In this document: piece by piece, positions 19,506 through 20,177 of the stretch | Numbering within the stretch: the first letter of the stretch is position 1 | Layout: each line of letters begins with the position of its first letter | Assembly (NCBI GenBank): GCA_024637035.1 | Contig: JAGXFW010000023.1 | Location: 1 to 64,000 of the forward strand | DNA from: Actinomycetes bacterium | Lineage (GTDB): Bacteria > Actinomycetota > Thermoleophilia > RBG-16-64-13 | Length of the DNA: 64,000 bases | Direction of reading: 5' to 3' | Program-made: the position numbers and the translations under genes | The notes under the pieces: generated by a model | Database searches by the model: none | The model's input: only the letters and a program-made list of their open reading frames with translations | What the model was told of the DNA's origin: nothing

Positions 19506-20177
19506 TCAACCTCCCGTAGTGGCGTCGCCCCGTGGGCGACCGCCTTCTTCGATCGTGTCATCGAGCAGCAGCACGGCGGCGGCAAGGCGGAAGCCGAGAT
19601 GCGCCGCGATCAAGGCTACCGGCACGAGTTCCGAACTCACCGCCGGAAAGCCACTCTGCATGCATATCCTCATCTCAAAGCCCGTGAGTGCCCGCACGTC
19701 GCGTACCCCGGCCACCTCGCCCTGCATGGCCTCCGTGCGGTTCGAAACCAACTCCGGCTCGTACATGCCCGCGGTCACCGTGAATCGCGGCCCCAGGGAC
19801 CCATCATTCGGACCGCGGAGCGGCGACTCCCACGTGAGATTCGCGTGGTCGGTGACTGCCAGCACCGGAGGGGGCGCCGCTGGGCCATGAGGCATGCCGA
19901 CTCGCGCAGCAGCGTCTTCGCGCACCCGCCGGCCAACACACACGTAGCCCACCACCAGGTCGTCGGGGGAGCGGGGACCGACTTCCCTGCCCGGCCCGAG
20001 GCCGAGCAGGGCCTTGCGCAGACCGTGGACCTCAGCCGCGCTCAATCGACGATCCAAGTGGCGCACACCCCGGGCCGGAAGCTCGATCGGCGACGCCGAA
20101 CCGTCTCCCGAGAGCCGCCGGGCAAGCCCGGCGAGACCGGGGGCTCCGATCGCCCCGGGACTTACCACCACCCTCAT
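19506..20177 (-). CDS. Divergent purine nucleoside phosphorylase-like protein
   Basis: 223 residues, shorter than the usual 265-280. The middle matches the PNP/MTA phosphorylase family: [22 protein letters not shown] and a following Tyr-Glu pair (117-154). The C-terminal part keeps the last strand-helix block. The N-terminal phosphate-loop GSGLG, GRxHxYEG and TNAAGG motifs are not seen. The position equivalent to the base-recognising Asn of PNP appears to be Asp (LLLDD), as in enzymes that take 6-aminopurines. Position next to ahcY and mtnA fits a role with methylthioadenosine or adenosine. It could also be a degenerate or regulatory homologue. Confidence 0.5.

Follow-up and report, generated by a model that had tools for sequence, protein, structure and literature searches.

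A short protein encoded beside ahcY as the putative loop-donating half of a divided purine nucleoside phosphorylase

The short protein resembling purine nucleoside phosphorylases (PNPs) that is encoded in the window, that is, the whole stretch of 64,000 nucleotides analyzed from an Actinomycetes bacterium of the Thermoleophilia, is most likely not an orphan methylthioadenosine (MTA) phosphorylase but the loop-donating half of a divided PNP, in a proposed complex. We consider it quite probable that it acts as a non-catalytic subunit of a heteromeric, or split, PNP, whose catalyst would be a DeoB-PNP chain encoded in the same genome. This reading is based on the reciprocal loss and retention of motifs in the two chains, their predicted single-chain folds, their co-occurrence among genomes, the clustering of the loop-less PNPs in one group, and purifying selection. 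The window comprises the following features:

17141..18238, minus strand: mtnA, S-methyl-5-thioribose-1-phosphate isomerase (TIGR00512, 443.4 bits), its start overlapping the end of ahcY
18235..19509, minus strand: ahcY, adenosylhomocysteinase (TIGR00936, 639 bits), directly 3' of the short gene
19506..20177, minus strand: short PNP-like protein, 223 residues, ATG start, proposed non-catalytic, loop-donating subunit of a heteromeric PNP
19755..19850, minus strand: donor block, residues 110-141 of the short protein (DHANL...SPLRGPND...GPRF...YEP), roughly the inter-subunit loop of mammalian PNP (about 134-164)
19782-19784, minus strand: F132 of the short protein, corresponding to Phe159
20227..22059, minus strand: LytR-CpsA-Psr family protein, 5' neighbour of the short gene

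The initial annotation described a PNP-like protein that keeps the DHx/GxRF block and is devoid of the phosphate loop and of the AAGG motif. Both points are borne out: the block, GPRF included, is present in the 223-residue ORF, and an alignment with ordinary PNPs reveals none of the phosphate loop (GSG), RxHxYEG, GMS and TNAxGG in the short proteins. PNP models cover no more of the protein than the stretch that begins at residue 105 (at 103 in one of them) and ends at ~209, and the cut-offs are reached neither with PF01048 (E 0.0029, 17.5 bits, cut-off 25.1) nor with NF006054 (E 1.1e-7, 31.6 bits, cut-off 218). Trimeric PNPs of the PDB return a best E-value of 5e-9 over residues 99-199, and no MTAP model is among the four NCBIfam matches up to E 1. 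AlphaFold2, provided with a 26-row alignment, returns a model (pLDDT 83.5, pTM 0.81) that matches trimeric PNPs over residues 1-216, in agreement with the PNP fold that the annotation had expected from structure prediction; the tip of the loop, residues 121-130, is of low confidence (mean 58). All 50 PDB entries that Foldseek lists are PNPs, with moderate TM-scores of 0.42-0.57 by query length. VIA-align gives 4uc0 as its best row (Z 11.8, rmsd 3.3, 167 residues aligned), followed by human PNP entries with Z about 11, in which model residues 1-216 are laid on chain residues of ~27-252. The short protein is therefore predicted, from this model, to adopt a whole, reduced PNP fold.

A homologue is found in 16 of the 17 other sampled genomes of the window's family, f1 (17/18 with its own), and in 13 genomes of family f3. 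Comparison of the window with a same-genus copy gives a dN/dS of ~0.28 for the short gene (dN 0.136, dS 0.486) and ~0.20 for the PNP part of DeoB-PNP (dN 0.138, dS 0.681), ahcY having a dN of 0.027 and a dS of 0.510. The short ORF is thus real: it is conserved, purifying selection acts on it, and a PNP fold is predicted for its product. PF01048 at E <= 0.01 matches only 9 of 26 short proteins. Most of them score poorly with PNP models and may be overlooked or labelled as degenerate PNPs, and the DeoB-PNP chain would pass for a self-sufficient enzyme.

The short gene and ahcY likely belong to the same operon. The listed ahcY ORF starts at TTG, an ATG a few codons downstream being also possible. 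Among the 16 f1 loci examined (the window's own and those of 15 relatives), a lytR-type gene adjoins the short gene in all 16, and ahcY follows it except in G010 and G014, where mtnA is found without ahcY. It is likewise followed by ahcY in 13 f3 loci, and an ahcY on the same strand is found in 27 of 29 loci overall. The stop codon of the short gene lies at most ~25 nt from the ahcY alignment, or just overlaps it, in 24 of the 29 loci; exceptions to this close spacing are G005 (frameshifted), G064 (71 nt) and G002 (same frame). In G002 (L015 1453-3333), no stop separates the short protein from ahcY in their common open frame; as AAGGAG precedes ahcY's own start, we do not claim a true fusion, and the arrangement may be a fusion or a coupled start. 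In G005, which possesses a loop-less PNP, the short gene is spread over two reading frames (L141 ~3000-3640), reflecting an assembly error or a real frameshift.

The annotation stated that no other phosphorylase is near. This holds for the neighbourhood of the window but not for the genome, which encodes three other PF01048 proteins, named with NCBIfam:

L002 148-2220, which is G000:C33 about 31453-33525, plus strand: DeoB-PNP, 690 residues, then followed by deoA, the pyrimidine-nucleoside phosphorylase gene
G000:C33 about 324014-324817, minus strand: full-length mtnP, S-methyl-5'-thioadenosine phosphorylase (NF005876, 353.2 bits, cut-off 306)
L003 569-2292 (G000:C33): futalosine hydrolase (NCBIfam score 180.8, cut-off 124.7)

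In DeoB-PNP, which lies on a different contig from the short gene, the DeoB part scores 460.2 (cut-off 256) and the PNP part 208.2 bits with NF006054, narrowly under the cut-off of 218. AlphaFold2 predicts a complete PNP fold for the loop-less PNP domain (pLDDT 94.6), and structure search matches it with PNPs. Every one of the 15 f1 genomes in which the PNP is readable has this domain as a C-terminal fusion to the phosphopentomutase DeoB, and two consecutive steps would thus fall to one chain. In the five f3 loci in which both are visible, the deoB frame comes first and is overlapped by the PNP frame. The f4 genome G020 carries a loop-bearing PNP in a frame of 693 residues without any DeoB match. 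An adenosine deaminase family protein is also encoded in the window's genome. The futalosine hydrolase adjoins an ORF judged by eye to be MqnD-like, which points to the futalosine route to menaquinone.

The residues missing from one chain are found in the other. Alignment with ordinary PNPs indicates that the DHxN…PLxGPND…RFP block is absent from the PNP part of DeoB-PNP and kept by the short protein. In human numbering, the short proteins retain D134, H135, P146, L147, G149, F159 and E205 in 26/26 rows each, and N137 in 18/26. Their E201 column holds L, P, M, V or I and their N243 column no N, both columns being placed less surely than the loop; D occupies the presumed N243 column in 2 of 26, and the Asp that the annotation had seen in place of the base-binding Asn is thus a local feature. 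Conversely, the loop-less PNPs retain S33, R84, H86, Y88, E89, E201, M219, S220, N243 and H257 in 26/26 each, and are devoid of D134, H135 and F159 (0/26 each), the latter being replaced by L, V, M or I. Glu201 together with Asn243 is a signature of 6-oxopurine (inosine/guanosine) phosphorylases; S33, R84, H86 and the other motif positions we take to be the named residues of PNP. The ordinary PNPs of the class (44 full rows) carry both residue sets nearly throughout, with F159 in 44/44, H135 in 40/44 and H257 in 41/44; two partial rows also read GPRF, bringing F159 to 46/46. The human numbering derives from alignment offsets (query residue 105 being human chain residue 129), with the implied insertion placed before PLRGPND. 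It agrees with Asn137, Arg148 and Phe159 as named in PMC9916683, where most of the other motif residues appear as active-site residues.

The 26 short rows omit G002 (frame shared with ahcY), G015 (masked bases), G005 (frameshift) and G017 (fragment), of which G002, G015 and G005 also read GPRF. Within the short proteins, conservation is highest in the donor block, with a mean pairwise identity of 0.55, as compared with 0.30 for the N-terminal and 0.41 for the C-terminal parts. The GPND motif is replaced in the 13 f3 short proteins aligned, mostly by GRWP, and F159 is kept. All 26 loop-less PNPs have Asp in place of N137, within a VxDLQ-like motif; this substitution, fixed on the former donor side, may be the sign of a new contact.

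Trimeric PNP, familiar from textbooks and itself a drug target, is considered to require its trimer even though each active site lies almost entirely in a single subunit. PMC9916683 reports that the calf active site is contained in one subunit save for Phe159, which a neighbour supplies, and that loop 134-164 belts the monomer and sits at the interface; it lists residues 87-91 and 196-205 of the adjacent monomer as part of this interface. It also reports no significant change in activity for human PNP F159A, and therefore a lone Phe cannot carry the argument for a split PNP. Since loop 134-164 sits at the interface, a chain deprived of all of it would be expected to lose one half of every contact between subunits.

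In ordinary trimeric PNPs, each subunit carries its own sites for phosphate, ribose and base and lends its loop, with Phe159, to a neighbour; in the scheme we propose, these two roles are divided. The DeoB-PNP chain, its own loop lost, would be both catalyst and loop acceptor, and the short chain, its catalytic site lost, would be a PNP-fold scaffold presenting the loop. This loop, F132 included, would dock on the acceptor face of DeoB-PNP (GRxHxYEG and GPxYETxAE segments), thereby stabilizing its active site and closing it, so that nucleosides of the inosine/guanosine type undergo phosphorolysis, and DeoB would then convert (deoxy)ribose-1-phosphate to the 5-phosphate. DeoB-PNP keeps the acceptor segments without a donor, and the short chain keeps a donor without the YEG segment; judged by the known contact, neither chain seems fit to complete a homotrimer, yet one looks able to dock to the other. 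This donor/acceptor polarity is the reason for proposing a heteromer, and a one-to-one pair is the simplest guess because neither chain looks like both donor and acceptor. We infer the physical association of the two chains, the dependence of activity upon it, its stoichiometry and the substrate. Against the scheme stand E205, an acceptor-side residue that the short proteins keep in 26/26, and the replacement of GPND in the f3 short proteins. The genes also lie apart in the genomes inspected: the PNP accompanies deoB (in the window's genome also deoA), and the short gene accompanies ahcY.

The distribution of the two proteins was searched in 41 genomes (the window's own and relatives), then in 399 genomes of the class, and the loop regions were aligned. 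A readable loop-less PNP is found in 26 genomes (15 of f1, all DeoB fusions, and 11 of f3), and a loop-bearing PNP in 46 genomes of f2, f4, f7 and f9. The short protein is present in 26/26 of the former and, as a separate protein, in 0/46 of the latter, a comparison that does not amount to 72 independent tests because the loop-less PNPs share one origin: they form one side of a 100/100 branch in a tree with 23 ordinary PNPs (21 from the class and two from other phyla). Among the 46, the short profile matches the PNP itself in 41 and nothing in five. Absence means absence at the sensitivity of the search, in which scoring was limited to the top seven first-look candidates of each genome, and a very divergent short protein could be missed. 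The co-occurrence is a matter of one origin followed by shared retention. G005 and G017 are counted as having the short protein although it is spread over two frames in the former and truncated at the end of a contig in the latter, and nine genomes are unscored. The PNP is cut at a contig end in G011 and in pieces in G059, and G080 yields fragments; the class-genome search finds the short protein and no PNP in G012 and G087, and neither of them in G013 and G049; the PNP fragment of G069 stops before the loop and that of G130 shows the start of an ordinary loop, both without a short protein. For the other 318 of the 399 genomes, neither the search for the short protein (E <= 1e-5) nor that for PNP-I (E <= 5e-26) gives a match.

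As a control on the latter threshold, 17 weaker matches (E 3.5e-25 and up; L243-L258 and L262) were fetched, and no loop-less PNP-I without a short protein is found among them. The MTAP profile outscores the PNP profile in 15 of the 17, the PNP profile being slightly ahead for L247 (79.6 vs 77.8) and L250 (73.2 vs 69.9), both of f5; for L247, L248, L250 and L262, the best NCBIfam model is MTAP, each below its cut-off. L247, L248 and L250, from the f5 genomes G071, G368 and G249, are MTAP/PNP-like frames of 221-230 residues without a PNP-type DHxN loop. At the level of the phylum, a search of 396 genomes (E <= 1e-12) returns matches in 56, including four f1 genomes, where the short protein is present. 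Matches in the remaining 52 begin at query position 66-104, as ordinary PNPs do; they were judged by this start except for three in frames of 183-203 residues, which were fetched and are ordinary loop-bearing PNPs, cut by a contig end or frame-broken. A pattern scan of genome contigs, which favours f1-type sequences, names 12 loci with the short protein and two loop-bearing PNPs from other phyla (L145 and L146), the 12 loci belonging to MAGs labelled Actinomycetota/Actinobacteria, Actinomycetes, Thermoleophilia or Gaiellales.

Distances among short proteins correlate with those among PNPs beyond what ahcY accounts for, with a partial r of 0.45 (22 genomes, 0/2000 permutations as high), of 0.46 within f1 (11 genomes, 6/2000) and of 0.75 within f3 (11 genomes, 0/2000); these are simple distance tests, and supportive only. 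In a PNP tree that includes the short proteins, built on 110 columns and with long branches meeting, the short proteins and the loop-less PNPs each form one group and their order is unsettled.

An alternative reading is that the loop-less DeoB-PNP works alone and that the short protein, derived from a PNP duplication, has taken on a new and unrelated job, as a ligand sensor or as a regulator of the ahcY-mtnA operon or of AhcY. The persistent company of ahcY (27/29 loci, 24 of them within ~25 nt) and the location of deoB-pnp on another contig in the window's genome suit such a job, and other enzymes of the PNP superfamily adopt different assemblies. It would, however, leave unexplained that conservation in the short protein is still highest at its donor face, that the presence of this protein goes with the loss of the PNP loop (26/26 vs 0/46), and that it co-varies with the PNP beyond ahcY; we regard this reading as unlikely. 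It is still harder to credit that the short gene is a decaying pseudogene, a reading that we give next to no weight and reject. Its catalytic motifs are gone, and in G005 it runs over two frames, but the gene is kept in 17/18 f1 and 13 f3 genomes with a dN/dS of about 0.28, seven loop or C-terminal residues are invariant in 26/26, and the predicted fold is confident.

The initial annotation favoured MTA or adenosine as the ligand and the short protein as the source of methylthioribose-1-phosphate that mtnA needs, and a related possibility is that the short protein pairs with the MTA phosphorylase. The operon-like order lytR-short-ahcY-mtnA is what recommends this reading, which we find very improbable. 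Because full-length mtnP is encoded elsewhere, mtnA can be fed without the short protein, and phosphorolysis of MTA or adenosine by the short protein alone is unlikely because its phosphate-, ribose- and base-binding residues of known kind are absent; the ligand claim is thus unsupported, and the short protein as an MTA/adenosine phosphorylase is rejected. Pairing with MTAP is rejected as well: a segment of its own (DQxxDRT...TF or similar) occupies the place of the PNP loop in 17 of 19 f1/f3 MTAPs, the pattern being indecisive for the other two, and MTAP therefore seems to lack nothing. The annotation had also envisaged an mtnP elsewhere together with decay of the short gene in relatives; the former exists, whereas the gene is kept in relatives and is not decaying.

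With regard to known systems, the trimeric PNP-I/PunA (NF006054, TIGR01697; human, calf and M. tuberculosis) shares the same fold, and both halves of its motifs are present over the two chains together. One chain is donor, acceptor and catalyst in that homotrimer, whereas these roles seem split over two chains here. The enzyme mtnP is of the same superfamily as the short protein and supplies the substrate of mtnA, but it is complete, is encoded elsewhere in the genome and keeps its own segment at the place of the PNP loop. The AdoMetDC/prozyme of T. brucei (PMC5201418), in which an impaired catalytic paralogue needs a catalytically dead one, and the trypanosomatid deoxyhypusine synthase heteromer (PMC3663545), made of a weak enzyme and a dead paralogue, resemble the proposed split PNP. 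Both are other enzymes, and prozyme relieves autoinhibition, whereas the short chain would supply the inter-subunit loop itself. In the open-access literature, subscription papers lying outside its scope, we found no heteromeric, split or dead-paralogue PNP, the nearest by title being a mutant P. falciparum PNP using wild-type neighbours (PMC7949152); as far as these sources go, they showed no precedent for a split PNP within the PNP family, and enzymes that need a dead paralogue are known elsewhere.

The split PNP probably arose via duplication and complementary loss. DeoB-PNP and the adjacent deoA would be consistent with a unit of nucleoside catabolism supplying (deoxy)ribose-5-phosphate to central metabolism. 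One may speculate that the position of the short gene beside ahcY ties PNP assembly to the SAH cycle, the deaminated adenosine of which is a PNP substrate. The full scenario, in which a duplicated homotrimeric PNP decayed complementarily into an obligate heteromer, with the donor made from the ahcY-mtnA operon and the SAH cycle thereby licensing purine nucleoside breakdown, is tentative, and we would sooner doubt it than accept it as a whole. If the split PNP is true, the role of the inter-subunit loop becomes testable by adding or omitting one chain, and the pair is a clear case of a homomer turned into an obligate heteromer through complementary loss. Lastly, the PNPs of the f4 genomes G097, G240, G268 and G292 (L198, L194, L197 and L195) exhibit a shortened loop, in which SPLVG or SPLTG is directly followed by xxF and the Phe is kept, and which possibly represents a minimal form of the donor loop.
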